Below are positions 13,598-26,964 of a DNA stretch of 64,000 nt, piece by piece; within the stretch, counting starts at the first letter, position 1; each line of letters begins with the position of its first letter. Under the pieces are notes generated by a model. It was not told where the DNA came from. It did not search any database and saw nothing but the letters and a program-made list of their open reading frames with translations. A program made the position numbers and the translations under genes. The stretch is from Shinella sp. H4-D48 (GTDB lineage Bacteria; Pseudomonadota; Alphaproteobacteria; Rhizobiales; Rhizobiaceae). Location of the stretch: assembly GCF_022637395.1 (NCBI RefSeq), contig NZ_CP093338.1, forward strand, positions 1-64,000, given 5' to 3'.

Positions 13598-14194
13598 CTA
13601 ACCGTTCGCAGCCAGAGTGGCTGCCAGAAGCGACACGAGCGCTTCTCCGGCATCCTCCAACGCGCCGCTGTTGTCGATGACGACGGTGTCGGCTGCAACA
13701 ACGATTTCCGGAGCAGCGCGAGCAAGGCGCTTGCGGATCGCATCCGCAGTCTCGCGGCCCCGAGCCGCGAGCCGCTCGGCAAGGATGTCCGGGCGGGCCG
13801 TGACCAGCACGACTGTGAGACGGGGATAGGCCGCCACAAAAGCCGGAAGTGCCGAACGGCTGCCATTCGCAACCAACGTCACGCCATTCTCCAGTTGCGC
13901 CAGCGTCTCTGCGGGAATGCCGTAGGAAAGGCCATGGGCCTCCCATGACACGGCAAAGCCGCCTTCCGATCTGCGCCGTGCAAAGCCCTCTGCATCGGTG
14001 GCCTCATGCGCCTCCCCGCCGGCGTCCGCAGGTCGGGTAATGACGCGGCGCACGAACTGCACGCATGACTCGCGGGCGAAATGACGGGCGGCGTAAGACA
14101 TGACACTGTCCTTGCCCGCGCCGCTCGGACCGACGACCACAACAATCGTGCCAGCGGCAGTCGGCAGCGCTTGCGGGTTCGCTTCTACGCTCAT
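13598..14194 (-). CDS. phnN: Ribose 1,5-bisphosphate phosphokinase
   Basis: This 198-residue P-loop kinase phosphorylates ribose 1,5-bisphosphate to PRPP, the last step that returns the ribose from C-P lyase turnover to metabolism. Walker A VVGPSGAGKDS is at residues 20-30, followed by a guanylate-kinase-like fold with VRRVITRPADAGGE. It is the last gene of the phnC-to-phnN transcript; its ATG overlaps the phnM stop by 4 nt. Length is as in E. coli PhnN. Confidence 0.93.
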   Translation of the reverse strand: MSVEANPQALPTAAGTIVVVVGPSGAGKDSVMSYAARHFARESCVQFVRRVITRPADAGGEAHEATDAEGFARRRSEGGFAVSWEAHGLSYGIPAETLAQLENGVTLVANGSRSALPAFVAAYPRLTVVLVTARPDILAERLAARGRETADAIRKRLARAAPEIVVAADTVVIDNSGALEDAGEALVSLLAATLAANG

Positions 14195-15336
14195 GCCACC
14201 CGGCGACCCTGGCGCCAGACTGAACGAACGACCGGCACGCCATCTGGTCGGCGCACGCGCACGATATCGGCGCGCAGGTCCGCGGCAATCGCACCGCGAT
14301 CATCGAGACCGACAGTGCGCGCGGGCGTGGTCGAGACCATCGCGATCGCCGTTGGCAGGTCGATGCCTTCGACCTCGTCGGCCAGAATGAAGGGCGCATG
14401 CATCAGACTGAAGGGCACATAGTCGGAGGACAGAACGTCGAGCACCCCAATCTTGGCAAGGTCGCGCGCGGCGATATTGCCGGAATGGGATTTGCCGCGC
14501 ACGATGTTTGGGGCGCCCATGAGCACGCTCATGCCCGCGCCGTGCGATGCTTTGGCCGCTTCGACGCTGGTCGGGAATTCGGCCAGACGGATACCGTAGC
14601 CAATGGCCTCCTCGACATGCTCGAGCGTCGCGTCGTCATGGCTGGCGACCGAGATATTGCGCGCCGCGCAGGATGCGGCGATGGCATCGCGATGCGGTTT
14701 GGCATAGCGAGCCGAAAGCTCCTGCTGCCGTTTGCAGAATTCCGCGAACTCGGCATCCGAAAGACCGCGCTTCTTCTGGTAGTAGAGAACGTACTGATCC
14801 ATGGTCTGGAATTGCCGCTGCCCCGGCGCGTGATCCATCAGTGAGACGAGACGGACCATCGGATCGTTCTCGAATTCTGCGTAATGATCCAATACATTAT
14901 CCGTAGAAACTTCACACCGAAGATGAATGAGATGTTCCGCTCGCAAACGGTCTTCGGCCTGCGCCTCGGAAAGCGCGTCGGCCATGGCGCGCATCTCGCC
15001 CTGTTCGAAACCACCGTCCGAATCCGAGCCCATGCGCAGACAATCGAAGACGGTAGTGATGCCTGACGTGACCACCTGCGCATCATGGGACTGAATGGCT
15101 GCGGTCTTGCCCCAGCGAACGCCGGGACGCGGCGAGTAATGCGCCTCGAGGTGGTCGGTGTGAAGCTCGACAAGACCAGGAATGAGAAAATCGCCTTCCA
15201 TGTCTTCGCCGACCGTTGACGGACCTTCGGAGATATCGGCGATGAGGCCGTCGCGCATGATCAGTGAGCCACTGAGAACCCGGTCCTCAAGTATAATTTT
15301 CGCATTGGAAAGAATGGTTTCGCGGGTCATCTTCAT
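14191..15336 (-). CDS. phnM: Alpha-D-ribose 1-methylphosphonate 5-triphosphate diphosphatase
   Basis: This 381-residue amidohydrolase-superfamily enzyme removes pyrophosphate from ribose 1-phosphonate 5-triphosphate to give the PhnJ substrate. The metal-binding VELHTDHLEAH segment near residue 57 replaces the HxH of the superfamily, and SVASHDDATLEHVEEA (about 230-245) and LSSDYVPFS (about 310) are conserved PhnM signatures. The start overlaps the stop of the DUF1045 gene by 4 nt. It is placed in the transport/processing half of the phn cluster, as in Sinorhizobium-type loci. Confidence 0.95.
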   Translation of the reverse strand: MKMTRETILSNAKIILEDRVLSGSLIMRDGLIADISEGPSTVGEDMEGDFLIPGLVELHTDHLEAHYSPRPGVRWGKTAAIQSHDAQVVTSGITTVFDCLRMGSDSDGGFEQGEMRAMADALSEAQAEDRLRAEHLIHLRCEVSTDNVLDHYAEFENDPMVRLVSLMDHAPGQRQFQTMDQYVLYYQKKRGLSDAEFAEFCKRQQELSARYAKPHRDAIAASCAARNISVASHDDATLEHVEEAIGYGIRLAEFPTSVEAAKASHGAGMSVLMGAPNIVRGKSHSGNIAARDLAKIGVLDVLSSDYVPFSLMHAPFILADEVEGIDLPTAIAMVSTTPARTVGLDDRGAIAADLRADIVRVRRPDGVPVVRSVWRQGRRVA

Positions 15337-16040
15337 GCAGTCTTTCTGTTGGCGGCTCCCCCCAGAGGGAAGAGCGAATGGACGGTGAAATCGGCGCCGC
15401 GCGACGGCTCTCGGAAGAGTGCCAGCCCGCCAAGCGTCAGCGGGCGGTCATGGAAATCGGCGAAATGGTCGAGAAGGACGGCCTCCATTCCATCTCGACT
15501 TTCGGCCGGGACGCGGCCGGTCAGCGTCATGTGGAAGCGGAACTCGTCAAAGACATAGGGATAGCCCCACTGCACCAGATTTTGGCGCTCTGCGGTACCC
15601 AGCTCATCCGGCCTGCGGCGCGCTATGTCGGCAGAGGTGAGCGGCGCGCGAAAACGTTCGAAGCGCCGGACGACCTCGCCGGCAAAGCTTTGCAACGGCG
15701 CGCAATGATCGCCGGGCACCAGTGCGAAGAAGGACCCGAGACGTCCGACGACGAGTTGCGGAATATCGACAGCTTCCGTTTCGCAAACGAAACGGCCGAG
15801 TTCGGCGACAAGCTCGGCTTCGCTGCGGCCTTCGGCCAATGCGAACGGCGCCTTCAGGGTGGCGTGGAAACCATAGCGGCGCGGATCTGCCGTCAGCCCT
15901 GCCATGGCGGACGCCTCGAAGCCGCTAACGGCCGGCTGTTCCAGAGCCGCGCCGGTAAAGGCGTTCCGTCCCAGCCAGCGCTGGGCGGCAAGCGTCAGCG
16001 GGTCGCTGGCAGGCGGGGTGAAATAAAGGGCGTATCGCAA
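15333..16040 (-). CDS. DUF1045 putative 2H phosphoesterase of phosphonate metabolism
   Basis: This 235-residue protein belongs to the DUF1045 family found in phosphonate operons. It has the two HxT motifs of the 2H phosphoesterase superfamily, GFHATLKAPF and FRFHMTLTG, which in related enzymes hydrolyse 2',3'- or 1,2-cyclic phosphates. The operon has no phnP, so this gene may supply the cyclic ribose phosphodiesterase step (inference). The family begins (M)RYALYFTP; here that methionine aligns with a TTG codon at 16040, preceded by AGGA at 8 nt. An upstream ATG at 16121 would add 27 non-conserved residues and nearly reach phnE2. The TTG start therefore looks more likely. Confidence 0.85.
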   Translation of the reverse strand: MRYALYFTPPASDPLTLAAQRWLGRNAFTGAALEQPAVSGFEASAMAGLTADPRRYGFHATLKAPFALAEGRSEAELVAELGRFVCETEAVDIPQLVVGRLGSFFALVPGDHCAPLQSFAGEVVRRFERFRAPLTSADIARRRPDELGTAERQNLVQWGYPYVFDEFRFHMTLTGRVPAESRDGMEAVLLDHFADFHDRPLTLGGLALFREPSRGADFTVHSLFPLGGAANRKTA

Positions 16041-16133
16041 AGGCTCATTCCTGTGAAACTCGTTCGACGCCGCCCGTGAAGGCGACGCCGGATCATGAAA
16101 GGATTCCTGTGGCAGCATCATGCCGCCACGCCA

Positions 16134-17480
16134 TCAATGCATCGGTTTTCCGATCAGCCGCGACCGCAGCGCATTGGAAATACCATCGAAAACGAAGACG
16201 ACGAGGAGGATCAGCACCACCATATAGGCTACCTTGTCCCAATCGGCATTCGTGCCCATCGCCTCCAGCAGCTTCAGGCCGATGCCGCCGGCACCAACGG
16301 CGCCGATGATCGTCGCAGACCGGGTGTTCGATTCCCAAAAATAAAGCGACTGGGAGACGAAGACCGGCAGAACCTGGGGCAGCACGCCGAACCGGTTGAC
16401 GGCTATGGACGATGCCCCGACTGACTTCACCCCCTCGCGCTGCTTATCGTCGACATTCTCCAGCGCCTCGGCATAGACCTTACCAAGCGCGCCCGTATCC
16501 GTGAAGAAGATGGCGGCGATGCCGGGGATCGGCCCCGGGCCGAACCCACGCGTGAAGAACAGCGCCCAGATCAGCATGTCGATCGACCGCAGGAAATCGA
16601 AGAGCCGCTTCATGCCCCAGTTCGCCGCGCGGTTCAGGGTGATGTTGCGGGCGGCGATGAAGGCGAGCGGCAACGCGAACAATGTGCCGAGAAGCGTGCC
16701 GACGAACGCCATCACCAGCGTCTGAAGCAGCTTGGACAAAATGTCGGCGTGCTGCCAGGCGGTGTTGCCGAGAAAGTCATCGACCATATGGCGGATGTTC
16801 GAACGACCCGTATCGACGCGCTCAGCCAGGAAGGCGAGGTTGGTGAGTTCGCCAAACGATTTCCCCCAGAATGGCGAACGAATGTCAAAGAAGAAGTTTG
16901 CCCAGCCGAGGAAGCGGCGCTGAACATAGACCTGCGAGCCGCGGATCTCAGCACTTCCCTCGAACCCGTAATCGACCATCACCTTGGTCCCGTCGAACAC
17001 GACGCCTGCGGGCGCGCCCTCTGGCGGCACCACGCCATCAGCCGTGATGGCGACCGGATAGACTGTGCCGCCAACAAGGATATCAACGCGGTCGGGATGG
17101 ACATCCAGCCGGTTATCCTCGCCTTCATAGATCACGCTGTAACCACCGTCGGCCATCGGACGAAGCCAGTCGATATCCGCACCCTCGGGATATTGCCGGC
17201 GGCTCGACCATTGCGGCACGACGGCACCATCGACAAAGCGCAGACGCGGCTGCGCGCGCCAGGAATACCAATCCTGCACATAGATGGCGGCACGGTCCCA
17301 GCGCCCCTGCATGAAGGCCGGGCCGACATTGAAGGCGGCAAAGCAGATGGTGAGATAGATGGCTGTAATGCCGACACACAACGCCAGCCCCCAACGCTGC
17401 CAGAAACTGCGCCGGAAGATATCGGGATAGGTGGCCAGAAGCCGGTCGCGCTCGGCGGCGTGGATCATGGTTGTCGACAT
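16134..17480 (-). CDS. phnE2: Phosphonate/phosphate ABC permease 2 (PhoT-type)
   Basis: This 448-residue inner membrane permease has one helix near residues 30-52, then an unusually long soluble segment (about 55-245, containing EGEDNRLDVHPDRVDILVGG), and the transport domain with five helices at about 260-440 (TLLGTLFALPLAFIAARN, EALENVDDKQREGVKSVGAS, the EAA-type coupling loop). E. coli PhnE is much shorter; the layout resembles PhoT of the Sinorhizobium phoCDET system, which moves both phosphate and phosphonates. The ATG at 17480 overlaps the phnE1 stop (TGATG). The long insert probably lies in the periplasm and may touch the binding protein (inference). Confidence 0.92.
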   Translation of the reverse strand: MSTTMIHAAERDRLLATYPDIFRRSFWQRWGLALCVGITAIYLTICFAAFNVGPAFMQGRWDRAAIYVQDWYSWRAQPRLRFVDGAVVPQWSSRRQYPEGADIDWLRPMADGGYSVIYEGEDNRLDVHPDRVDILVGGTVYPVAITADGVVPPEGAPAGVVFDGTKVMVDYGFEGSAEIRGSQVYVQRRFLGWANFFFDIRSPFWGKSFGELTNLAFLAERVDTGRSNIRHMVDDFLGNTAWQHADILSKLLQTLVMAFVGTLLGTLFALPLAFIAARNITLNRAANWGMKRLFDFLRSIDMLIWALFFTRGFGPGPIPGIAAIFFTDTGALGKVYAEALENVDDKQREGVKSVGASSIAVNRFGVLPQVLPVFVSQSLYFWESNTRSATIIGAVGAGGIGLKLLEAMGTNADWDKVAYMVVLILLVVFVFDGISNALRSRLIGKPMH

Positions 17481-18460
17481 CAGACAGCTCCCCGTGCGGT
17501 GTCCAGGAACTGCTGGCCAATCAGGCGCCGGCGCAGCCACGACGAGAACTGGTCGACCGCGATGATGGTGACGAGCAGGAGGATGACGATCGCGTAGGTT
17601 TTGGCGGCATGGTCGCGGCCGATGGCAAGGCGGAACACCTCGCCGATCCCGCCGCCGCCGACGGCCCCGATGATGGTCGAGGCGCGCACGTTGATCTCGG
17701 CGCGCAGCAGCGTGTAGGACACGAAATTCGGCAGGACCTGGGGAACGATAGCGTAGCGCACGCGCTCGACCCAGCTCGCTCCGGTGGCGCGCAGCCCCTC
17801 GTCCGGCCGCATGTCAACATTCTCCACGACCTCGAAGAACAGCTTGCCGAGCGCGCCGATCGTGTGGATCGTGATCGCCACAATGGCGGCAATCGGCCCG
17901 ATGGACAGGATGGCCGTCAGAAGACCGGCGACCACGATTTCCGGAAAGGCGCGCATGACTTCCATGATACGCCGCACGACCCAGCGCGTGGCGCCCGCGC
18001 CGACGAGATTGGTCGAGGCGAAGAAGCACAGCAGGAAGGCCAGCACGAAGCCGATGATCGTCGCGATCAGCGCGATGTTCACGGTGATGATCAGCTGGTA
18101 GATGAAATGCGGGATGTAGAAGCCGTCGGTGATGTAGACCCGCTCGGACGTGTAATCATAACGCAGCGACCCATCGGCATAGGGCGACGGCAGGTCGAAC
18201 ATCGCCCGCACGATTTCCATCGGGCTATCGGGCACGAAATTTCGGATGAAATCGAAGACGTAGGGCAGACGTTCGAAGAACTTGCCGGAATTCGCACTGT
18301 TGGCGAAATCGAGCGACGCCCAGAGTGCCACGAGGAAGACGATGATCGCGATGGCGGTATAGACCCGCCGCGTCCTCAGCTGTTGCTGATAGTGCCGCAT
18401 CACCGCGGCGGCGGACGGTCCAAGACCGCTCATCGTGTTTTCAGCTGTGCCGGACGCCAT
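17480..18460 (-). CDS. phnE1: Phosphonate/phosphate ABC permease 1 (PhoE-type)
   Basis: This 326-residue permease has a first helix at about 35-52 (VYTAIAIIVFLVALWASL), a short periplasmic insert, and a transport domain at about 120-315. It carries the EAA-type loop FFEVVENVDMRPDEGLRATGAS and the GAVGGGGIG motif shared with phnE2. Together the two permeases form a heterodimeric channel for the PhnC ATPase. It corresponds in order to PhoE of the rhizobial phoCDET locus. It is separated from phnD by 59 nt that hold a hairpin. Confidence 0.93.
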   Translation of the reverse strand: MASGTAENTMSGLGPSAAAVMRHYQQQLRTRRVYTAIAIIVFLVALWASLDFANSANSGKFFERLPYVFDFIRNFVPDSPMEIVRAMFDLPSPYADGSLRYDYTSERVYITDGFYIPHFIYQLIITVNIALIATIIGFVLAFLLCFFASTNLVGAGATRWVVRRIMEVMRAFPEIVVAGLLTAILSIGPIAAIVAITIHTIGALGKLFFEVVENVDMRPDEGLRATGASWVERVRYAIVPQVLPNFVSYTLLRAEINVRASTIIGAVGGGGIGEVFRLAIGRDHAAKTYAIVILLLVTIIAVDQFSSWLRRRLIGQQFLDTARGAV

Positions 18461-18480
18461 GCCGCTTTCTCCTGTGGGAC

Positions 18481-18503
18481 GGATGGCGCCTGAAGCGCCA
18501 CCC
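18481..18503 (-). repeat. Intercistronic hairpin between phnD and phnE1
   Basis: On the minus strand a 9-bp stem (GGGTGGCGC / GCGCCATCC, one G-U) with a 5-nt loop lies just after the phnD stop and before phnE1. No T tract follows in that direction. It probably stabilises the phnD part of the message, giving more binding protein than permease. Confidence 0.6.
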
Positions 18504-18519
18504 GTTTTTTTGATGGCGA

Positions 18520-19425
18520 TCAGCCGCCGATGACGGACTTACGAGCGTCGATGATCGTCTGGTAGAACGACTGGTCGACCTTGATGTAGTCCTTGTTGGC
18601 GCCCTGCGTGTAGGACTGGAAGCAGGCGAGGTCCTTCTTCGGCAGTTCGACGAAATACTGCTCGACCTTGGCGCGCATGTCGTCCGCCAGCTTGTTGGAC
18701 ACCATCAGCGGACCGTTCGGGATCAGCGGTGACTTCCAGACTTCGACGATGTCGTCCATGTCGAGATTGCCCTTGTTGACCATCTGGTAGAGGTTGCCGC
18801 CCGTATAGCCCTCTTCCCATTTGCCAACGCCCGAACCGAAGGTCGTGCCGACATCGAACTTGCCGTCGAGAACGGCGAGAACAAGGTTCTCGTGGCCGCC
18901 GCCGAAGCCGGTTTCAGAGAAGTATTCCTTGACCGGCATGCCGATTTCCTTCGGCAGCGTCACGCTCGGAACGAGATAGCCGGAGGTGGAGTCCGGGTCC
19001 GCAAAGCCGATCTTCTTGCCCTTGGCGTCGGCCAGCGTCTTGATACCGGAATCCTTGCGGGCAACCATGATCGAATAATAGCCGCTGGAGCCGTCCGACT
19101 GGGTGTAGGTCAGGATCGGGTCGACGGCCTTCGGGTCCTGAAGGTAGATGGCGGCGTAGGACGACGCGCCCATCGAGGCGATGTCGATCGTGCCGCCGAG
19201 CAGGCCCTGAATAACGCCGTTATAGTCCGGCGACGGGAAGATCTGGACTTCCGGCACGCCGGTCGCGGCCTTCAGGCCGTCGGCAACGCACTGGGTGTTG
19301 CGGATCTGGTCGGCTTCGTTTTCCGAGCCGTCGAGACCGATGCGCAGGACCTTGACGTCCTGAGCCATGGCGGAACCGGCCGTTACGGCAATCGCGACGG
19401 CGGCGAGCAGAGCTTTCTTCAACAT
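18520..19425 (-). CDS. phnD: Phosphonate ABC transporter periplasmic binding protein
   Basis: This 301-residue solute-binding protein has a Sec signal peptide (MLKKALLAAVAIAVTAGSAMA, cleavage after AMA). The mature chain has the PhnD/PhoD family core: GSENEADQIRN near the start, the DIASMGASSYAAIYL strand and FADPDSTSGYLVPS, whose Ser/Thr cluster binds the phosphonate or phosphate group in PhnD structures. It delivers ligand to PhnE1/E2. It is expressed from the unit starting at phnC, 84 nt downstream of that gene. Confidence 0.95.
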   Translation of the reverse strand: MLKKALLAAVAIAVTAGSAMAQDVKVLRIGLDGSENEADQIRNTQCVADGLKAATGVPEVQIFPSPDYNGVIQGLLGGTIDIASMGASSYAAIYLQDPKAVDPILTYTQSDGSSGYYSIMVARKDSGIKTLADAKGKKIGFADPDSTSGYLVPSVTLPKEIGMPVKEYFSETGFGGGHENLVLAVLDGKFDVGTTFGSGVGKWEEGYTGGNLYQMVNKGNLDMDDIVEVWKSPLIPNGPLMVSNKLADDMRAKVEQYFVELPKKDLACFQSYTQGANKDYIKVDQSFYQTIIDARKSVIGG

Positions 19426-19509
19426 TGCGTTCTCCTTTTGCCGGCCTCGCCGGCAGTCGAATCCTGTCGGTCTGTGGTGCCCTTGACGCGGGCGTTCGAT
19501 CCCGGCGGG

Positions 19510-20370
19510 TCAGAGACCAGCCAGTGCCAGCGGTGTGGGGCTGGCGGATTCCTTGTCAGTGCTATGGTCGTTGTCCTGGCGGGCAGGGTTGCGAATGGCG
19601 GTGGACGTGACGCTCTCGTCGATCTCCGAGCCATCGGAACCCGTGCCGTAGATCGAGCGCACGGCTTCGGCATTCAACTCACGGGGCGGGCCGTCGAAGA
19701 CCACACGACCGCCCGACATGCCGATGATGCGCTCGCAGTAGGCGCGCGCCGTATCGAGAGTATGCAGGTTGGTAACGACGGTGATGCCTTCGCGCTCGTT
19801 GATGTCGCGCAGCGCGTCCATGACGATCTTGGCGTTCAGCGGATCGAGCGAGGCGATCGGCTCGTCGGCCAGCAGCATCTTGGGGTTCTGCATCAGCGCG
19901 CGGGCGATCGCCACACGCTGCTGCTGTCCCCCTGACAGCGTGCCGGCGGGCTGAAGCGCCGTCTGCTCGATGCCGAGCCGTTCAAGAGCCGCAATCGCCA
20001 TGATGCGCTCCTCGTGGCTGAAAATGCTCAGAAGGCTGAGGACCGTCGAACGGTGGTTCAGGCGGCCGAGCATGACGTTTGTGAGCACATCCAGGCGCGG
20101 CACGAGATTGAACTGCTGGAAGATCATCGCACAATCGCGCTGCCAGTTGCGCAACGCCGAGCCACGCAGCGACGACACCTCGATATCGTTGAAGTGGATC
20201 GTGCCCTCGCTCGGATCGGCAAGGCGGTTGATCATGCGCAGCATGGTAGACTTGCCGGCGCCCGAACGGCCGATGACGCCGACCATCTGCCCCTGCGGGA
20301 TGTCGAACGTCACGTTGTCGACGGCAACGCGCTCGCCGAAACGGCGGGTGACATTCTTCAGTCGGAACAT
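19510..20370 (-). CDS. phnC: Phosphonate ABC transporter ATP-binding protein
   Basis: This 286-residue ABC ATPase energises phosphonate/phosphate import. Walker [10 protein letters not shown] lies at about residues 33-41, the Q-loop is at [14 protein letters not shown], the signature is [15 protein letters not shown], and Walker B is [12 protein letters not shown]. The ATG at 20370 is preceded by GGGAG at 5 nt and matches the family N-terminus ([11 protein letters not shown]); in-frame upstream codons are not conserved. The C-terminal 30 residues are variable. It is the first gene of the transport and processing unit, with a candidate Pho box about 90-115 nt upstream. Confidence 0.95.
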
Positions 20371-20456
20371 GGCAGCTCCCTCTTCCTTCGCTCGGCGCCC
20401 GGGCTTGGGTCCTGTCGCTTTCGGGACTGGCTCTAAACGTCGTTGATGAAGGGGCC

Positions 20457-20485
20457 ATGTCAGTTCCATGTCGGAAAAATAACAG
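20457..20485 (-). promoter_or_regulatory. Candidate Pho box upstream of phnC
   Basis: Reading toward phnC, three 7-mers CTGTTAT, CCGACAT and CTGACAT are each separated by 4 nt, giving the 11-bp periodicity of PhoB sites (rhizobial consensus CTGTCAT-N4-CTGTCAT). It lies in the 153-nt gap between the hexapeptide transferase gene and phnC, which indicates a second, phosphate-starvation-induced promoter inside the phn cluster. Confidence 0.7.
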
Positions 20486-20523
20486 TCCACAGGCCTGGTT
20501 TTCAGGCATCGCGGCTCGCCTCC

Positions 20524-21138
20524 TCACCCGCCGTAGCAGGATAGGAAGGCTTCTGCGTCAAGTTTGCGAAAGTCGTCGAGCGCGCTGCGCAGCCGGGCAT
20601 GATCCCAATCCCACCAGGCAAGTTTTTCCATGCGTTCTGCGATGCTTCGCGGGAAGCGCTCACGAATGACTTTCGCCGCAACACCGCCGACGATGGTGTA
20701 GGGTTCGACGTCTTTGGTGACGACGGCACCGGAGCCGACGACCGCACCATTGCCAATCGTGACACCCGGCAGGACGGTGGAACCGTGACCGATCCAGACG
20801 TCATGTCCGATGGTGACGCGATGCTCGCGCCGCCAGGCGAAGAAATCCGCCTCGTGGTCTGCATCGGGCCAGTAGTCGCTGGCGCGATAGGTAAAGTGGT
20901 GCAGCGTCGCGCGCCACATGGGATGGTTTGTCGCGTTGATGCGCACGGAAGCGGCAATGTTGACGAATTTGCCGATCGTCGCGCACCAGACGGAGCCGCC
21001 CTCCATGATGTAGGAATAGTCGTCGATCTCCGCCTCGCTGATGCGGCAGTTCTCGGCGATCTCGGTATAACGGCCGAGCGTCGTGTCGGAGACGACCGCC
21101 GTCGGGTGGATCAGTGGCGTTTCGGAAAGCTTCGTCAT
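20524..21138 (-). CDS. Hexapeptide-repeat transferase of the phn cluster
   Basis: This is a 204-residue left-handed beta-helix acyltransferase. Imperfect hexapeptide repeats run through residues 10-165 (HPTAVVSDTTLGRYTEI; VTIGHDVWIGHGSTVLPGV; AVVGSGAVVTKDVEPYTIV). It belongs to the xenobiotic acetyltransferase type group repeatedly found in phosphonate operons. PhnO, the GNAT aminophosphonate acetyltransferase of E. coli, is not present, so this protein might modify aminophosphonates or an intermediate (inference); the substrate is unknown. Its ATG overlaps the phnL stop by 4 nt, making it the last gene of the phnG-led unit. Confidence 0.88.
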   Translation of the reverse strand: MTKLSETPLIHPTAVVSDTTLGRYTEIAENCRISEAEIDDYSYIMEGGSVWCATIGKFVNIAASVRINATNHPMWRATLHHFTYRASDYWPDADHEADFFAWRREHRVTIGHDVWIGHGSTVLPGVTIGNGAVVGSGAVVTKDVEPYTIVGGVAAKVIRERFPRSIAERMEKLAWWDWDHARLRSALDDFRKLDAEAFLSCYGG

Positions 21139-21842
21139 GCGGCGACCTTTCGCGGTGAGAAGGCGGAGACATCCACGATGCGATCGGCGACCCTTTCGCG
21201 CACATCCTCGTCGTGAAAGATGCCGAGAAGCGCCACGCCTGCCGCCTTCTTCTCCTCGATCATGTCCACCACGACAGTCCGGTTCCTCGCATCGAGCGAC
21301 GCGGTCGGCTCGTCCAGCAGGAGGATGCGGTGATCGGTGATAAAACCGCGTGCGATGTTGACGCGCTGCTGCTCTCCGCCGGAGAACGTGGCGGGCGGCA
21401 GTTGCCAGAGTTCACGCGGAAGGTTAAGCCGCGCCAGCATGACCTCGGCCATCCCCCTCGCCTCAGCCGCATCGATGCCCCGCGCCGTAAGCGGCTCGGC
21501 CACGACATCGACGGCCGCGACACGCGGCACGGTGCGCAGGAACTGGCTGACATAGCCAAGTGTTGCCCGGCGCACGGACAGAATGGTGCGCGGATCGGCA
21601 CTCGCCAGATCGAGCAGGCGGCCACCGTGCTCGAGCAGGATCTGGCCGCCGTCAACGGCATAATTGCCATAGACCATCTTGAGCAGCGAACTCTTGCCAA
21701 TGCCGGAGGGACCGCCCAGCACGACGCATTCGCCCGCTTTTACTGAAAAAGTCACGTTGGACATGACCGGCAACCGGATACCGTCGCGCAGATGCATGGT
21801 GAAGCTCTTGGCGACATCGGAAACGACGAGAGGAGTCGGCAT
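21135..21842 (-). CDS. phnL: C-P lyase complex ABC-type ATPase subunit PhnL
   Basis: This 235-residue protein of ABC ATPase fold has Walker A GGPSGIGKSS near residue 44, signature FSGGEQQRVNIARGF and Walker B ILLLDEPTASLD. PhnL is not a transporter subunit. In the C-P lyase pathway it acts with PhnG, PhnH and PhnI in forming ribose 1-phosphonate 5-triphosphate from ATP and phosphonate. The gap to phnK is 2 nt, and the downstream transferase gene overlaps it. Confidence 0.95.
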   Translation of the reverse strand: MPTPLVVSDVAKSFTMHLRDGIRLPVMSNVTFSVKAGECVVLGGPSGIGKSSLLKMVYGNYAVDGGQILLEHGGRLLDLASADPRTILSVRRATLGYVSQFLRTVPRVAAVDVVAEPLTARGIDAAEARGMAEVMLARLNLPRELWQLPPATFSGGEQQRVNIARGFITDHRILLLDEPTASLDARNRTVVVDMIEEKKAAGVALLGIFHDEDVRERVADRIVDVSAFSPRKVAA

Positions 21843-21844
21843 GG

Positions 21845-22621
21845 TTACACCTGCAGGATCGAGGAAACGAGGAGCTGGGTATAGGCTTCGCGCGGATCGT
21901 CCAGCACGCGGTCGGTCAGGCCCTGTTCGATGACGAGGCCATCCTTCATAACCATCATGCGGTGCGACAGCAGGCGCGCCACGGCAAGGTCGTGCGTGAC
22001 GATGATCGCCGAAAGACCGAGATCCTGGACGAGGCCGCGCAGGAGATCGAGCAGGCGGGCCTGAACCGAGACGTCGAGACCGCCGGTGGGCTCATCCATG
22101 AAGATCAGCCTTGGTGACGTCACGAGGTTGCGGGCAATCTGCAGACGCTGACGCATGCCGCCGGAGAAGGCGCGCGGCTGGTCGTCTATGCGGTCCACGC
22201 TGATCTCCACCCGCCGCAGCCAGTCGCCGGCCGTCTCGCGGATATTGCCGTAGTGCCGCTCGCCGACGGCCATCAGCCGTTCGCCGACATTGGCACCGGC
22301 CGACACCGCCATACGCAGGCCGTCCGCCGGGTTCTGGTGCACGAAGCCCCAGTCCGTGCGCATCAGGAAGCGGCGCTCCGCCTCGCTCATGCGGGAGAGG
22401 TCGCGCATCTGCCCATCGCGCATGCGGTATTCGACGGAACCTGAACTCGGCATCAGCCGGGTGGCGAGGCAATTGAGCAGCGTCGTCTTGCCAGACCCGG
22501 ATTCGCCGACGATGGCCAGCACTTCGCCCGGCCAAAGATCGAAGGAGACATTCCGGCACCCGATGCGTGCGCCATAAAACTTCGAGATATCGCAGACCTT
22601 GAGAAGAGGAGCATCAGTCAT
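21845..22621 (-). CDS. phnK: C-P lyase complex ABC-type ATPase subunit PhnK
   Basis: This 258-residue ABC ATPase has Walker A GESGSGKTT near residue 40, the Q-loop region FVHQNPADGLRM, signature FSGGMRQRLQIARNL and Walker B LIFMDEPTGGLD. PhnK binds the PhnGHIJ core through PhnJ in the E. coli structure and is needed for phosphonate breakdown. It resembles dipeptide transporter ATPases in sequence, but the gene order assigns it to C-P lyase. It overlaps phnJ by 4 nt. Confidence 0.95.
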   Translation of the reverse strand: MTDAPLLKVCDISKFYGARIGCRNVSFDLWPGEVLAIVGESGSGKTTLLNCLATRLMPSSGSVEYRMRDGQMRDLSRMSEAERRFLMRTDWGFVHQNPADGLRMAVSAGANVGERLMAVGERHYGNIRETAGDWLRRVEISVDRIDDQPRAFSGGMRQRLQIARNLVTSPRLIFMDEPTGGLDVSVQARLLDLLRGLVQDLGLSAIIVTHDLAVARLLSHRMMVMKDGLVIEQGLTDRVLDDPREAYTQLLVSSILQV

Positions 22622-23496
22622 TCGGCGGCGTCCTTGTCATAAGCGAGATGGCCGCGATGGCCCTCTGCGCAGCGACCTTCGCAATGGTCGGTGTCGGAGC
22701 AGACGAACATCCGTCCGCCCTTGTCGTCGAGCACGACCTCATCGAGATAGACGTCCTCGGCACCGCACAAGGCACATGGCTTGTCGAACGTCTGGATTTC
22801 GAAAGGATGGTCCTCGAAATCGAGGCTGACGACCTCGGTATGGGGCGGCACCGCATAGATGCGTTTCTCGCGCCCGGCGCCGAAGAGCTGGAGGGCCTCC
22901 GACCTGTGCATCTTCGGATTGTCGAATTTCGGTGTCGGAGAAGGATCCATAACGTAGCGTCCCTCGACCTTGACCGGATAGGCATAGGTCGTGGCGATGT
23001 GGCCGTTTCTGGCAATGTCCTCATAGAGCTTCACATGCATGAGGCCATATTCCTCAAGTGCATGCATCTTGCGGGTCTCCGTCTCACGCGGTTCGAGAAA
23101 GCGCAGCGGTTCGGGAATCGGCACCTGATAGACGAGCGTCTGGCCGGCTGTCAGCTTTTCCTCGGGAATGCGATGGCGCGTCTGGATGATGGTCGCCTCA
23201 CCCGTCCTGGTCGTCACAGCCACATTGGCGACCTTCTGGAAGAAGGCGCGGATGGAGACGGCGTTGGTCGTGTCGTCCGCACCCTGATCGATGACCTTCA
23301 GCACGTCGGCAGGCCCCAGGATCGCTGCGGTCACCTGCACACCGCCGGTGCCCCAGCCATAGGGCATCGGCATTTCGCGCGAGGCGAACGGCACCTGATA
23401 GCCGGGGATGGCGATCGCTTTCAGGATCGCGCGGCGGATCATGCGCTTCGTCTGTTCGTCGAGATAGGCGAAATTGTAGGTCGCGAGATCGCTCAT
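22618..23496 (-). CDS. phnJ: Carbon-phosphorus lyase, radical SAM subunit
   Basis: This 292-residue catalytic subunit cleaves the C-P bond of ribose 1-phosphonate 5-phosphate with a 4Fe-4S cluster and S-adenosylmethionine, releasing the hydrocarbon (methane from methylphosphonate). The key residues keep E. coli numbering: Gly32 (glycyl radical site, in IPGYQ), Cys241 and Cys244 (KPCALCG), Cys266 and Cys272 (FVCSDTDHC), with an extra Cys276. All catalytic cysteines are intact, so the enzyme should be active. It overlaps the fosX-like gene at its start and phnK at its end. Confidence 0.97.
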   Translation of the reverse strand: MSDLATYNFAYLDEQTKRMIRRAILKAIAIPGYQVPFASREMPMPYGWGTGGVQVTAAILGPADVLKVIDQGADDTTNAVSIRAFFQKVANVAVTTRTGEATIIQTRHRIPEEKLTAGQTLVYQVPIPEPLRFLEPRETETRKMHALEEYGLMHVKLYEDIARNGHIATTYAYPVKVEGRYVMDPSPTPKFDNPKMHRSEALQLFGAGREKRIYAVPPHTEVVSLDFEDHPFEIQTFDKPCALCGAEDVYLDEVVLDDKGGRMFVCSDTDHCEGRCAEGHRGHLAYDKDAAE

Positions 23497-23912
23497 TCGT
23501 TCACCGCCTCCAGTCGGGCGTAGGTCGCCAGCCGCCCGTCGAGCGTGCCGCCGTGCAGTTCGAAAAGATGGTTGTCGGCGTCATGGAAATAGAGGGACCG
23601 CCCCTCTCCCTCCACGCGCGGGCGTGGCGGCCTTACATCAAGGCCGAGCCGCTCGATGCGCTCGAGATAGAGGTCCAGCGTGTCATCCGGCACCTTGAAG
23701 GCGATGTGTTTGTAAGTGCGCTCGGAAAGAGCCTCGCCTTTCATGATGGCGATCCAGAGCCCGCCGATGACGAAGAAGCGCTCCGGCGAAAGAGAGAACT
23801 GCCGCTTTCCGCTGGCATAGACCTGCTTTGCGTTGAACACGCCTTGCAGAATATCCGTCATCCGGTCGAGATCGCGCACGATGAACGTCATATGGGAAAG
23901 GCCCTCGATCAT
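23493..23912 (-). CDS. fosX: FosX-type VOC metalloenzyme (fosfomycin hydrolase homologue)
   Basis: This 139-residue vicinal-oxygen-chelate protein has metal ligands His7 (GLSHMTFIV), His69 (YKHIAFKV) and Glu118 (HLFELHGG). Glu44, in SLSPERFF, aligns with the catalytic base of FosX, which adds water to the epoxide of fosfomycin. The segment RPPRPRVEGEGRS is shared with the Mesorhizobium loti FosX, which is also encoded in a phn operon and is only weakly active on fosfomycin. Embedded between phnI and phnJ with 4-nt overlaps on both sides, it is translated with C-P lyase. Its natural substrate may be a phosphonate or a pathway intermediate (inference). Confidence 0.9.
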   Translation of the reverse strand: MIEGLSHMTFIVRDLDRMTDILQGVFNAKQVYASGKRQFSLSPERFFVIGGLWIAIMKGEALSERTYKHIAFKVPDDTLDLYLERIERLGLDVRPPRPRVEGEGRSLYFHDADNHLFELHGGTLDGRLATYARLEAVNE

Positions 23913-25018
23913 TCCGCCGCCTCCGCGAGGTCATCGGCATTGCCGGCCAGCTTCTCCTCGTATTCACGCCGCATGCGGCGCACGAGGGCGAGCTCGGCCT
24001 GGAAATCCACATAATGAGGAAGCTTCAGGTGCTCGACGAAACCGGTCGCCTGCACATTGTCCGAATGGGAGATGACGAACTCCTCGTCCTGCGCCGGCGC
24101 CACGATATCCTCGCCGAATTCGTCCGCGCGCAAGGCGCGGTCGACCAATGACATGGCCATGGCCTTGCGTTCGCTCTGGCCGAACACGAGCCCGTAGCCG
24201 CGCGTGAACTGCGGCGGGGTCTTCGTCGAACCCTTGAACTGCGCGATCATCTGGCATTCGGTGATCTGGATGCGGCCGAGCGACACGGCAAATCCCAGCT
24301 CCGGCATGTCGATCTCCACTTCGACCTCGCCGATGCGCACTTCCCCGACAAACGGATGGGTGCGGGCGTAGCCGCGCTGGGTGGAATAGCCGAGCGCCAG
24401 CAGAAACCCCTCGTCGCCCCTGGCCAGCGCCTGCAGGCGCAAGTCCCGGGCCATTGGGAATTCCAGCGGCTCACGCGTGATATCGCCGGGTACATGGCCA
24501 TCCGGCAGGCTGCCGTCATCCTCGACAAGGCCTTCGCCGGCGAGAATGTCCGACACGCGCATGACCGGTTCACGACTTTCCTCGCGTTCCAGCGGCGCAT
24601 CGACATCGGCATCCGTTAGCAGGGAGGGGTCGAGAAGACGGTGCGTGTAGTCGAAGGTCGGGCCCAGAAGCTGGCCGCCGGGCAGGTCCTTGTAGGTGGC
24701 GGAAACACGGCGTTCGATCGCCATCTCGGCCGTATCGACAGGCTTGGAATAGCCGAAGCGCGGCAGGGTCGTGCGGTAGGCGCGCAGGATGAAGATCGCC
24801 TCGATCATGTCGCCACGTGCCTGCCGGATGGCGAGAGCTGCAAGTGCCCGGTCGTAAAGCGACGCTTCAGCCATTACCCGGTCCACGGCAAGGCCGAGCT
24901 GCGCGACGATCTGCTCTATACCGATCGCCGGCAGCGAGCGGTCGCCACGGCGTCGGTCGGCGAGAAGACGGTGGGCATTGGCGATGGCGGCTTCACCACC
25001 CTTGACGGCAACATACAT
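23909..25018 (-). CDS. phnI: Alpha-D-ribose 1-methylphosphonate 5-triphosphate synthase subunit PhnI
   Basis: This 369-residue core subunit of the C-P lyase complex is, by itself, a nucleosidase; with PhnG, PhnH and PhnL it replaces adenine of ATP by phosphonate. The N-terminus MYVAVKGGEAAIANAHRLL is near-invariant in PhnI, and LPHYVDFQAELALVRRMRREYE near the C-terminus is another signature. Length is close to E. coli PhnI. It starts 3 nt after the phnH stop and overlaps the fosX-like gene. Confidence 0.96.
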   Translation of the reverse strand: MYVAVKGGEAAIANAHRLLADRRRGDRSLPAIGIEQIVAQLGLAVDRVMAEASLYDRALAALAIRQARGDMIEAIFILRAYRTTLPRFGYSKPVDTAEMAIERRVSATYKDLPGGQLLGPTFDYTHRLLDPSLLTDADVDAPLEREESREPVMRVSDILAGEGLVEDDGSLPDGHVPGDITREPLEFPMARDLRLQALARGDEGFLLALGYSTQRGYARTHPFVGEVRIGEVEVEIDMPELGFAVSLGRIQITECQMIAQFKGSTKTPPQFTRGYGLVFGQSERKAMAMSLVDRALRADEFGEDIVAPAQDEEFVISHSDNVQATGFVEHLKLPHYVDFQAELALVRRMRREYEEKLAGNADDLAEAAE

Positions 25019-25021
25019 CGG

Positions 25022-25630
25022 TCAGCCCTCCTTGATGTGCAGAACGGTGGTGCGCGGCAGGCAAAGGACCCTGATGCCGGCAACGAGGATCATGTCCACG
25101 CCGCGGGGAAAATTCTGCCCGTTCTCAAGCCAGAATTGCGCAAACATGTCCGGCAGGCCGACCAGCGCGATGTGCTCTTGCGTGCGGATACCCGGCCCGG
25201 TCATGGCGAAAGACCGCCCGCCTTCGAAGGCCTCAATCTCGACAATGAGCGTCGTCGAACGATCCGGATATTCCTGCGTGCCCTGCGCGAAGAGGCAGAG
25301 GCTCGGCAGGATCCCGCCCTTCTCGACGAAGGCGAATCGGGCGTTCTGTCGCTCGGTGGTCGTGGTTGCGCCAGTGTGGAAGGCAAGCCATCCTGGCAAG
25401 GCGGAGGTGGCAAGCGCCGGGGTCAACCACACGTTCGTATCGTGGTCGCACAGCGTGAGTGCAACGGCGCCGGCCGCCGGCGAGAGCGGTGGGGGCGGAG
25501 CAACATCGACGGCAATATCACCGACCGTGCCCGGACGGGCCATACAGTCCATCATCGTGCGAAAGACGGCCTGAGCGGCGAAAACCGGCTCCGGGAACCC
25601 GCCGGAGAAAGTGCGTGTATCGAGTGTCAT
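25022..25630 (-). CDS. phnH: C-P lyase subunit PhnH
   Basis: This 202-residue PhnH-family protein starts MTLDTRTFSGGFPEPVFAAQAVFRTMMDCMARPG, with the FRxxMxxMARPG motif of the family. PhnH has a PLP-transferase-like fold without the cofactor and joins PhnG and PhnI in the core complex; it is required for the first committed step. The ATG shares a base with the phnG stop (TGATG). Confidence 0.95.
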   Translation of the reverse strand: MTLDTRTFSGGFPEPVFAAQAVFRTMMDCMARPGTVGDIAVDVAPPPPLSPAAGAVALTLCDHDTNVWLTPALATSALPGWLAFHTGATTTTERQNARFAFVEKGGILPSLCLFAQGTQEYPDRSTTLIVEIEAFEGGRSFAMTGPGIRTQEHIALVGLPDMFAQFWLENGQNFPRGVDMILVAGIRVLCLPRTTVLHIKEG

Positions 25631-26109
25631 CAGTCCTCTCCGCGAACCATGGTGAAGAAGTCGACGCGGGTGGCGGCCGCCTGGCGGGTCTTCGCGGCGT
25701 CTTCAGCGACGACACGTGCAGCTATGGCCGCAAGAAGCATCTCGACTTCCGTTTTGCGGTCCGGCTGCTGGAAAAGCGCGTCGAAGATCGCCGCAAGCCG
25801 AGCCTTCGCCCCATCCGTGCCCAGCGTCTGGCCGTGACCAACCGTGCCGTCATCAAGACGAATACTGGCGCGACTGACCGTAGCCTCACCGAGATTGAAC
25901 GGCGCGCCACCACCGCCAATCCGCCCGCGCACCATCACGAGGCCCGTTTCGGGGCCGCGCACCGGCTGCACGTCGGGCTTGTCACCAAGGGCATCGAAGG
26001 CGGACTGCAACTCCGTCCGGCTTGCCTTTGCAAGAAGCCCGATCGCTCTCTGCCGCTCGGCATTCGCAGCCTTCACGCCGGCCTCCGCAGATTTTTCAAC
26101 TGCCGCCAT
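25630..26109 (-). CDS. phnG: C-P lyase subunit PhnG
   Basis: This 159-residue protein is the first gene of the C-P lyase unit. The family core AIGLLAKASRTELQSAF, then VRGPETGLVMVRGRIGGGGAPFNLGEATVSRASIRL and VGHGQTLGTDGAKARLAAIFDAL, is intact. PhnG forms a heterocomplex with PhnH, PhnI and PhnJ. The upstream 105 nt to phnF contain a Pho box and an inverted repeat, so the operon is probably under both PhoB and PhnF control. Confidence 0.94.
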   Translation of the reverse strand: MAAVEKSAEAGVKAANAERQRAIGLLAKASRTELQSAFDALGDKPDVQPVRGPETGLVMVRGRIGGGGAPFNLGEATVSRASIRLDDGTVGHGQTLGTDGAKARLAAIFDALFQQPDRKTEVEMLLAAIAARVVAEDAAKTRQAAATRVDFFTMVRGED

Positions 26110-26124
26110 TGCCTCACTCCCAAA

Positions 26125-26142
26125 TGTCTATTATTCTAGACA
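26125..26142. promoter_or_regulatory. Candidate PhnF operator
   Basis: A perfect inverted repeat TGTCTA-N6-TAGACA sits between the divergent phnG and phnF genes, 16 nt upstream of the phnG ATG. GntR-family regulators commonly bind such dyads next to their own gene; this one would block phnG transcription downstream of the Pho box. Binding by PhnF is inferred from position and symmetry. Confidence 0.6.
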
Positions 26143-26176: not shown

Positions 26177-26194
26177 ATGACAAGGGTGTGACAA
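26177..26194 (-). promoter_or_regulatory. Candidate Pho box upstream of phnG
   Basis: Reading toward phnG, TTGTCAC and TTGTCAT are separated by ACCC, matching the two-repeat PhoB site (CTGTCAT-N4-CTGTCAT) in 11 of 14 positions. A possible -10 element (TTTAAG) lies about 10 nt further on. It is 68 nt from the phnG start. Confidence 0.65.
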
Positions 26195-26214
26195 ATATTT
26201 CATACGGGGGCGAA

Positions 26215-26964
26215 ATGGTGGAACGACAAACTGGCGTTGCGCTCTGGCGGCAGATCGCAGACCGGATGCGCCTTGCAATCAACAATGGCGATTTCGACGA
26301 GACCGGCATGATGCCGCCGGAAACGGTTCTTGCCGCCCGGTTTGGCGTCAACCGCCACACGGTGCGCAGCGCCATGGCAACGCTTGCCGATGAGGGTATC
26401 GTGCGCGCCATGCAGGGCGTCGGCACCCGTATCGAACGACGTGACAGGTTGAGCTTTCCGATCTCTCGGAGAACACGGTTTTCACAAGGCCTCGGAAATC
26501 AGGCGCATGATATCGAAGGTCGGATGCTGGAGGCAGACACAGACGTTGCGCCCGCTGTCGTCGCGCAGGCATTGGGATTGGGGGCAGGAACGCCGTGTGT
26601 GCGAATTGAAACCGTCAACAGTGCCGACAAGCGCCCCATATCGCGTGCAACGCATTATTTCCCTGCGGAACGGTTTGCCGAGATGGCCGAAGCTTACGAG
26701 AGGACGCGATCGATTACCGCAGCGTTTCGCGAACTCGACGTTTCCGACTATGTGCGCCGGTCGACGGAGATCTCCGCGATCCACGCCGAAGGAGACGACA
26801 TGCGCCACCTGAAACTCTCGCCTGGAGCGATCATCCTTGTGGCAACGGCCATCAACACCGATCTCACGGGTATCCCGATTCAATATTCGCGCACACGGTT
26901 TGCCGCGGACCGCGTCAAGCTGACGGTGGAGCCAGAAAATGACGGTATCGGTGACCCAGGCTAA
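26215..26964 (+). CDS. phnF: GntR-family transcriptional regulator of phosphonate genes
   Basis: This 249-residue HutC-subfamily GntR regulator has an N-terminal winged helix (residues about 8-72: ALWRQIADRMRLAI, PPETVLAARFGVNRHTVRSAMATLADEGIVRAMQG) and a C-terminal UTRA ligand domain (about 95-240, ending PIQYSRTRFAADRVKL). It is divergent from phnG, the usual PhnF position, and likely represses the phn genes until a phosphonate or phosphate-related ligand binds. The ATG at 26215 has GGGGGCG upstream; an in-frame GTG at 26188 overlaps the Pho box and adds non-conserved residues. Confidence 0.92.
   Translation: MVERQTGVALWRQIADRMRLAINNGDFDETGMMPPETVLAARFGVNRHTVRSAMATLADEGIVRAMQGVGTRIERRDRLSFPISRRTRFSQGLGNQAHDIEGRMLEADTDVAPAVVAQALGLGAGTPCVRIETVNSADKRPISRATHYFPAERFAEMAEAYERTRSITAAFRELDVSDYVRRSTEISAIHAEGDDMRHLKLSPGAIILVATAINTDLTGIPIQYSRTRFAADRVKLTVEPENDGIGDPG

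Follow-up and report, generated by a model that had tools for sequence, protein, structure and literature searches.

A predicted FosX-type fosfomycin epoxide hydrolase encoded between phnI and phnJ in a C-P lyase operon of the Rhizobiaceae

Described FosX enzymes and the predicted enzyme of the window

The closest described systems are the FosX enzymes of Mesorhizobium loti and Listeria monocytogenes. The M. loti gene is located in a phn operon, and the accessible text of PMC6122793 describes its product as a promiscuous enzyme that has little capacity for fosfomycin and is probably primarily metabolic. The accessible part of PMC9304900 calls it a promiscuous progenitor in the phn operon, and the location is restated there and in available excerpts of PMC12413358, both citing Fillgrove 2007. 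In Listeria, FosX confers high fosfomycin resistance, and its gene is a core gene that is not described as a member of a phn operon in the accessible portions of PMC6122793. A fosX gene among phn genes, as pointed out by a first-pass annotation of the DNA studied here, is not a new observation, since the arrangement was already in print for M. loti together with a proposed metabolic role (PMC6122793, accessible text). The literature searched, to which few subscription papers belonged, contained in its accessible text neither a survey of the phnI-fosX-phnJ cassette nor a remark on residue 131, and the main text of a 2023 review of phosphonate degradation (PMC10574752) mentions neither fosfomycin nor FosX. 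The arrangement is largely known in print, and the present analysis adds locus counts, a cassette-like distribution, a Pho-box-like site and an atypical Lys131 in the M. loti protein.

The window, i.e., the whole stretch of 64,000 nt that was analysed, belongs to a contig of 892,686 bases; the genome has 4.77 Mb, and a single FosX was found in it. The window FosX scored 202.5 bits with the NCBIfam model NF000222 (FosX; cut-off 170). The nearest solved structures by sequence are M. loti FosX (1r9c; 68% identity over 136 residues), which shares family and operon type, and Listeria FosX (2p7k and others; 60% identity over 131 residues), which shares the metal ligands and Glu44. The nearest named relative is the FosX of Shinella sumterensis (89% identity). 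An AlphaFold model (pLDDT 88) was compared with known structures using Foldseek, and the best matches were two FosX enzymes, with TM values by query length of 0.83 for 1r9c_A (E 5e-21) and 0.85 for 2p7p_A, indicating that a VOC fold is predicted. The FosA and FosB thiol transferases have this fold in common with the window FosX (Foldseek), and a kinship in sequence is detectable. However, only 81 bits were reached with the FosB model NF003152 (171 needed) and 52 bits with the FosA-type model NF000496 (180 needed), and the FosB chains displayed in two alignments lack a Glu at the place of Glu44, one alignment showing a gap there and the other a Leu beside a 7-residue gap.

The first-pass annotation had proposed that the general base Glu44 and the metal ligands His7, His69 and Glu118 are retained, and this was verified. 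The four residues align with identical residues in 1r9c and 2p7k, and they are kept in 105/105 aligned homologues, 48 of which had been gathered independently of residue patterns. In total, 18 positions are invariant in the 105 rows. Three residues of the window FosX that are located in or beside active-site motifs, and that also differ from 1r9c, are atypical. Lys68, next to the ligand His69, is an Asn in 97 of the 104 other rows, Gly121 occurs in none of these 104, and Gly126 occupies a position with Glu in 76 of 105 rows, so that Glu126 is not a defining residue by conservation. A structure of the Listeria E126Q mutant exists (title of 2p7q). Because of these three residues the activity of the window FosX is not assured. 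The dN/dS values were 0.015–0.284 in all eight close FosX pairs tried, and thus fosX is, as judged from coding sequences, under purifying selection.

Operon position and a Pho-box-like site

The fosX gene of the window is located between phnI and phnJ (Table 1), as had been stated by the first-pass annotation, and its product is of the FosX type by model score, predicted fold and catalytic residues. The C-P lyase operon extends from 13598 to 26109 on the minus strand in the order phnG, phnH, phnI, fosX, phnJ, phnK and phnL, followed by genes for a hexapeptide transferase, a phnCDE-like transporter, DUF1045, phnM and phnN. The fosX gene has the same strand as its neighbours, a spacing of −4 on both sides and a position inside phnGHIJKL, i.e., it is a phn operon gene. 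The claimed overlaps with phnI and phnJ are both exactly 4 nt by coordinates. Further 4-nt overlaps were found for phnJ-phnK, phnL-hexapeptide transferase gene, DUF1045-phnM and phnM-phnN; therefore, they reflect the tight packing of this operon and are nothing peculiar to fosX. In GC and GC3, fosX resembles phnI and phnJ. Rfam and tRNA scans of the 64-kb window yielded no matches.

Table 1. Features of the C-P lyase operon and its upstream region; positions are those of the 64,000-nt window.
Feature	Position	Strand	Basis and remarks
fosX	23493..23912	-	ATG to TGA, 139 aa; predicted VOC-fold FosX-type fosfomycin epoxide hydrolase
phnI	23909..25018	-	Pfam PhnI 545 bits; 4-nt overlap with fosX at 23909-23912
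phnJ (C-P lyase enzyme)	22618..23496	-	Pfam PhnJ 491 bits; 4-nt overlap with fosX at 23493-23496
phnG	25630..26109	-	TIGR03293 161.9 bits
phnH	25022..25630	-	TIGR03292 200.1 bits
phnK (ABC-type ATPase)	21845..22621	-	Pfam ABC_tran; named by operon position
phnL (ABC-type ATPase)	21135..21842	-	Pfam ABC_tran; named by operon position
Hexapeptide-repeat transferase of phn operons	20524..21138	-	TIGR03308 330 bits
phnC-like transporter ATPase	19510..20370	-	Pfam ABC_tran 126 bits; start inferred
phnD-like binding protein	18520..19425	-	ORF; named by position and resemblance
phnE-like permease 1	17480..18460	-	ORF; named by position
phnE-like permease 2	16134..17480	-	ORF, start inferred; named by position
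DUF1045 phn-operon protein	15333..16121	-	TIGR03223 276.6 bits; PF06299
phnM	14191..15336	-	NF011983 657 bits
phnN-like kinase	13598..14194	-	Weak AAA/guanylate kinase matches under cut-offs; named by position
phnF repressor gene	26188..26964	+	TIGR02325 304 bits; divergent, at operon head
Pho-box-like repeat TGTCACACCCTTGTCAT	26177..26193	-	Upstream of phnG; perfect TGTCAY-N5-TGTCAY
Inverted repeat GTCTA-N6-TAGAC	26126..26141	.	Between phnG and phnF, found by eye; possible PhnF operator

The core gene set, PhnF and a Pho-box-like site are common to the window operon and other C-P lyase operons of the Rhizobiaceae. The Pho-box-like repeat upstream of phnG, a putative PhoB site, is the sole perfect match to TGTCAY-N5-TGTCAY in the 64 kb, it is on the operon strand, and none of 100 shuffles contained such a match. 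The phnF-phnG regions of 45 related operons were also inspected (loci L108 and L109 included, the window's own operon left out), and 43 of them have TGTCA-N6-TGTCA with at most one mismatch, which was reached by at most 1% of 200 shuffles per region. Two mismatches were counted in the remaining regions, those of L069 (7% of shuffles) and L092 (14%). The inverted repeat between phnG and phnF is nearly kept in L049.

Distribution and history of the phnI-fosX-phnJ arrangement

The distribution of the genes was determined in samples of 151 genomes of the family, 21 of the genus, 297 of the order, 385 of the class and 398 of the phylum. FosX was found in 18 genomes of the family sample and PhnJ in 100. 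Nine of the 18 have phnI-fosX-phnJ, four have FosX and PhnJ apart, and five have no PhnJ. The placement is not due to chance, because half of the FosX-bearing genomes show it, though these genomes are kin by descent. Most Rhizobiaceae phn operons differ from that of the window, as fosX adjoins phnJ in only 9/100 phnJ-bearing genomes. The 91 without an adjoining fosX, together with the five FosX genomes devoid of phnJ, indicated that neither gene needs the other. In the genus sample FosX was present in 3/21 and PhnJ in 16/21 genomes, and the linked form in 2/21 (2/16 of those with phnJ). FosX was present in 30 genomes of the order sample; five of these, belonging to three family codes (f1, f179, f280), have the linked form, and in one further genome (G1006) fosX precedes DUF1045-phnM. 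Some match was obtained in 83/385 genomes of the class sample and one over the FosX cut-off in 5/385, and of these five only that of the window is linked. In the phylum sample 6/398 genomes matched at 1e-25, and four of these are linked.

In addition, 63 named loci were collected, of which 62 could be parsed and 46 were linked (broken and duplicate ones counted); these loci were retrieved with a sequence of the linked clade as query and do not form a random sample. The arrangement phnI-fosX-phnJ was present in 49 distinct intact loci once broken and duplicate copies had been discarded, and M. huakuii NBRC 15243 (L070) has it. Both collected M. ciceri loci (L081 and L110, from strains other than CC1192) are linked, and the set holds no M. 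japonicum locus. The phnI-fosX overlap is 4 nt in 48/49 linked loci and the fosX-phnJ overlap is 4 nt in 33/49, while 14 of the others have a segment of 271–299 nt before phnJ. In three other loci (L093, L095, L185) fosX is followed, among the mapped genes, by DUF1045 and then phnM, which is a second association of fosX with phosphonate genes.

A common catabolic cluster around unlinked FosX was sought in 17 loci and was not found; the contexts differ. Two contexts recur, namely DUF1045-phnM-phnN (L093, L095) and a nucleoside-type transporter operon (L088, L090, L091). In L088 (4247-11128), and likewise in the other two loci, fosX is part of a nucleoside-type ABC transporter operon and has a 4-nt overlap with the double-ATPase gene; the L088 operon also encodes two permeases, a cytidine deaminase, a purine nucleoside phosphorylase and deoC.

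The evolutionary distances of FosX and of PhnI plus PhnJ agree in 49 operons (Mantel r 0.868, reached by 0/2000 permutations). In a PhnIJ tree of 90 rows (87 different ones), 52 of which have fosX, the two fosX rows of the window genus nest inside its fosX-less rows, while in a 77-row FosX tree their FosX groups with that of Rhizobium and Pararhizobium (support 99/94). Among 38 operons without fosX, 32 have a phnI-phnJ distance of −13 to +17 nt (starts placed by homology), and presence and absence of fosX require 11 changes on the PhnIJ tree. From these sequence comparisons fosX can be read as a cassette that was gained or lost cleanly, and loss after an old insertion would fit best. Rooting on one Listeria row made the linkage look derived, while rooting on FosA/FosB-like rows made it look basal, and because the root moves with the outgroup, the FosX family may or may not have originated in a phn operon. 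When the phn side was held together, the likelihood was higher by 18.4 (p-AU 0.728). On a 105-row tree the linkage needs eight changes, and a single origin in one clade was not rejected (p-AU 0.445). The trees contain only one FosX from outside the Pseudomonadota (L107).

Several loci were left out of the trees. The 77-row tree is without L108 and L109 (frame-broken fosX), L111 (fragment), L115 (no start found) and the duplicates L002, L022, L041, L044, L045, L089, L094, L098, L112, L116 and L117, and the 105-row tree is without L195 (truncated) and L168 (same place as L118). The PhnIJ tree is without L108, L109, L116, L159, L022, L041, L044, L045, L002, L112 and L157 as well as loci with too little PhnI or PhnJ.

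The cassette-like presence and absence, and the position between two core subunits, could mean that fosX is a neutral passenger or that its product is an accessory subunit of C-P lyase. Both are highly improbable, as purifying selection was found in 8/8 pairs and the catalytic residues are kept in 105/105 rows, and the many C-P lyase operons that lack fosX show that a subunit role is not needed. A shift in specificity between linked and unlinked FosX was also considered and was rejected, because in a column-by-column comparison no catalytic or invariant position separates the groups. Information on group membership is highest in the C-terminal tail and at positions 19, 30, 38, 79, 81, 95 and 96.

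The spacing of the genes varies between loci. The segment directly upstream of phnJ is 138–299 nt long; it occupies the fosX-phnJ interval in L051, L053, L060-L065, L068, L070, L072, L074, L080 and L110, and it also occurs between phnI and phnJ in L021, L030, L031, L036, L047 and L148. In many of the loci, not in all, its antisense reading gives a predicted small membrane protein with a single helix, the tail of which is usually rich in Gly, Asp and His; the three of these proteins that were scanned matched no Pfam family over cut-off. Gaps of 127–742 nt between phnJ and phnK were seen in 20 loci (e.g., L054, L060, L065, L155), and some contain short recurring motifs, which presumably resemble rhizobial intergenic palindromic elements. 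In L010, a 473-nt gap between phnI and fosX carries an antisense frame that we take to resemble DUF378. A gene that by eye looks like a HAD phosphatase gene lies between fosX and phnJ in a Filomicrobium MAG (L092, 6200-6829). The fosX frame is broken in L109 (6001-6415), where the phn genes on either side could be mapped unbroken; in L108 many genes are broken, possibly owing to a poor assembly.

Possible roles in fosfomycin detoxification and use

The explanation that is considered probable, with considerable reservation, is that FosX opens the epoxide of fosfomycin under phosphate starvation, protects MurA and hands the resulting diol phosphonate to C-P lyase. FosX would be made together with C-P lyase when phosphate is short, and fosfomycin would enter the cell, probably via the phosphonate transporter encoded in the same operon. 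With a bound divalent metal, by homology Mn2+, the enzyme would hydrate the oxirane, Glu44 acting as the general base, and the product would be 1,2-dihydroxypropylphosphonate. The reaction would protect MurA at once, and the diol, an ordinary hydroxyalkyl phosphonate, could be loaded onto ribose and cleaved by PhnGHIJ, which would free its phosphorus. The cited rhizobial degradation of fosfomycin reportedly runs via dihydroxypropylphosphonate.

Target and uptake were inspected in the genome. Fosfomycin binds the Cys of the LPGGCAIG motif of MurA, and this Cys-bearing motif is kept in the MurA of the genome, and thus the target looks sensitive. A search with TIGR00881, which we take to be a model for GlpT/UhpT-type antiporters, gave 17 weak matches in the genome and none over cut-off, and therefore entry by the phosphonate transporter is plausible. 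These two results were counted in favour of hydrolysis followed by C-P lyase, as were the observed FosX score, predicted fold, kept residues, position in the operon, Pho-box-like site and dN/dS values, the 49 linked loci, the association with DUF1045-phnM, the Mantel agreement and the arrangement in M. huakuii, taken together with the citation of 'R. huakuii' PMY1 as a fosfomycin degrader. Counted against it were the separate occurrence of fosX and phnJ, published deletions that speak for resistance only, a possible other reading of the A. tumefaciens result and the atypical Lys68, Gly121 and Gly126. If the feeding half of this explanation were true, an antibiotic-resistance enzyme would catalyse the first step of a nutrient pathway, and the high fosfomycin tolerance of rhizobia would be easier to understand. 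The question is testable, as one genus has strains with and without the cassette (2/16 phnJ-bearing genomes have it).

The proposal of the first-pass annotation that the gene protects from fosfomycin is backed by two relatives: fosX deletion mutants of M. japonicum R7A and M. ciceri CC1192 were less resistant to fosfomycin and retained a high residual resistance (PMC9973854, accessible text). According to the same text, resistance was scored and not growth on fosfomycin as phosphorus source, and the location of the gene is not given. The deletions may have been polar on phnJ. Their effect would also be explained if fosX were a resistance gene only, co-expressed with a broad phosphonate importer that may admit fosfomycin, with the diol remaining unused; FosX without PhnJ in 5/18 family genomes, the several other contexts of the gene and the sensitive-looking MurA also argue for such a role. 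However, the kept insertion in the core phnGHIJ genes and the second association with DUF1045-phnM suggest more than co-expression. C-P lyase is a broad enzyme that is expected to accept a hydroxyalkyl phosphonate, and a role in resistance alone is thus judged unlikely. In A. tumefaciens under fosfomycin, phnJK was underrepresented among transposon insertions, and the authors propose that C-P lyase degrades the antibiotic (accessible part of PMC9790009). This result may mean that C-P lyase copes with fosfomycin alone in A. tumefaciens C58. Rhizobium huakuii PMY1 or Rhizobiales are cited as fosfomycin degraders in the available passages of PMC8928225 and PMC9790009.

The first-pass annotation had also suggested that FosX may act on natural phosphonates, and in the present analysis no evidence favours a substrate other than fosfomycin. 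That another epoxy- or unsaturated phosphonate is the natural substrate, with fosfomycin hydrolysis as a side activity, would accord with the promiscuity, low fosfomycin capacity and probably primarily metabolic role ascribed to M. loti FosX (accessible text of PMC6122793) and with its description as a progenitor in the phn operon (PMC9304900, available part). It is, however, distinctly unlikely in view of the fosfomycin phenotype in vivo of two relatives (PMC9973854, accessible text), the lack of a shift at catalytic residues between linked and unlinked FosX, the 18 positions invariant in 105 rows and the odd position 131 of the 1r9c sequence.

This position also bears on the statement of the first-pass annotation that an M. 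loti homologue in the same context is a poor hydrolase. The statement itself is in print (accessible text of PMC6122793), but its premise is one protein with an atypical Lys131. This Lys is the sole 1r9c residue found in none of the 105 rows, in which position 131 is Tyr in 104, including that of the window, and Cys in one; Listeria FosX also has Tyr. If the kinetic work used the 1r9c sequence, the low activity may be peculiar to that M. loti protein, and its reputation as a poor hydrolase may therefore not stand for the clade. It is possible, though on balance doubtful, that the phn-linked rhizobial FosX carries out the first catabolic step at full strength and makes fosfomycin a phosphorus source for C-P lyase, with resistance and feeding united in a single pathway, the label of a poor enzyme having come from a single M. 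loti protein with Lys131 in the helix that braces the active site of the partner chain. The published doubt rests on the crystallised M. loti enzyme with this residue. In Listeria FosX, residues 128–133 stabilise the catalytic site via contacts with the partner chain, Tyr131 packs on Tyr32′, and a stop at triplet 128 renders a fosX allele non-functional (PMC6122793, accessible text).
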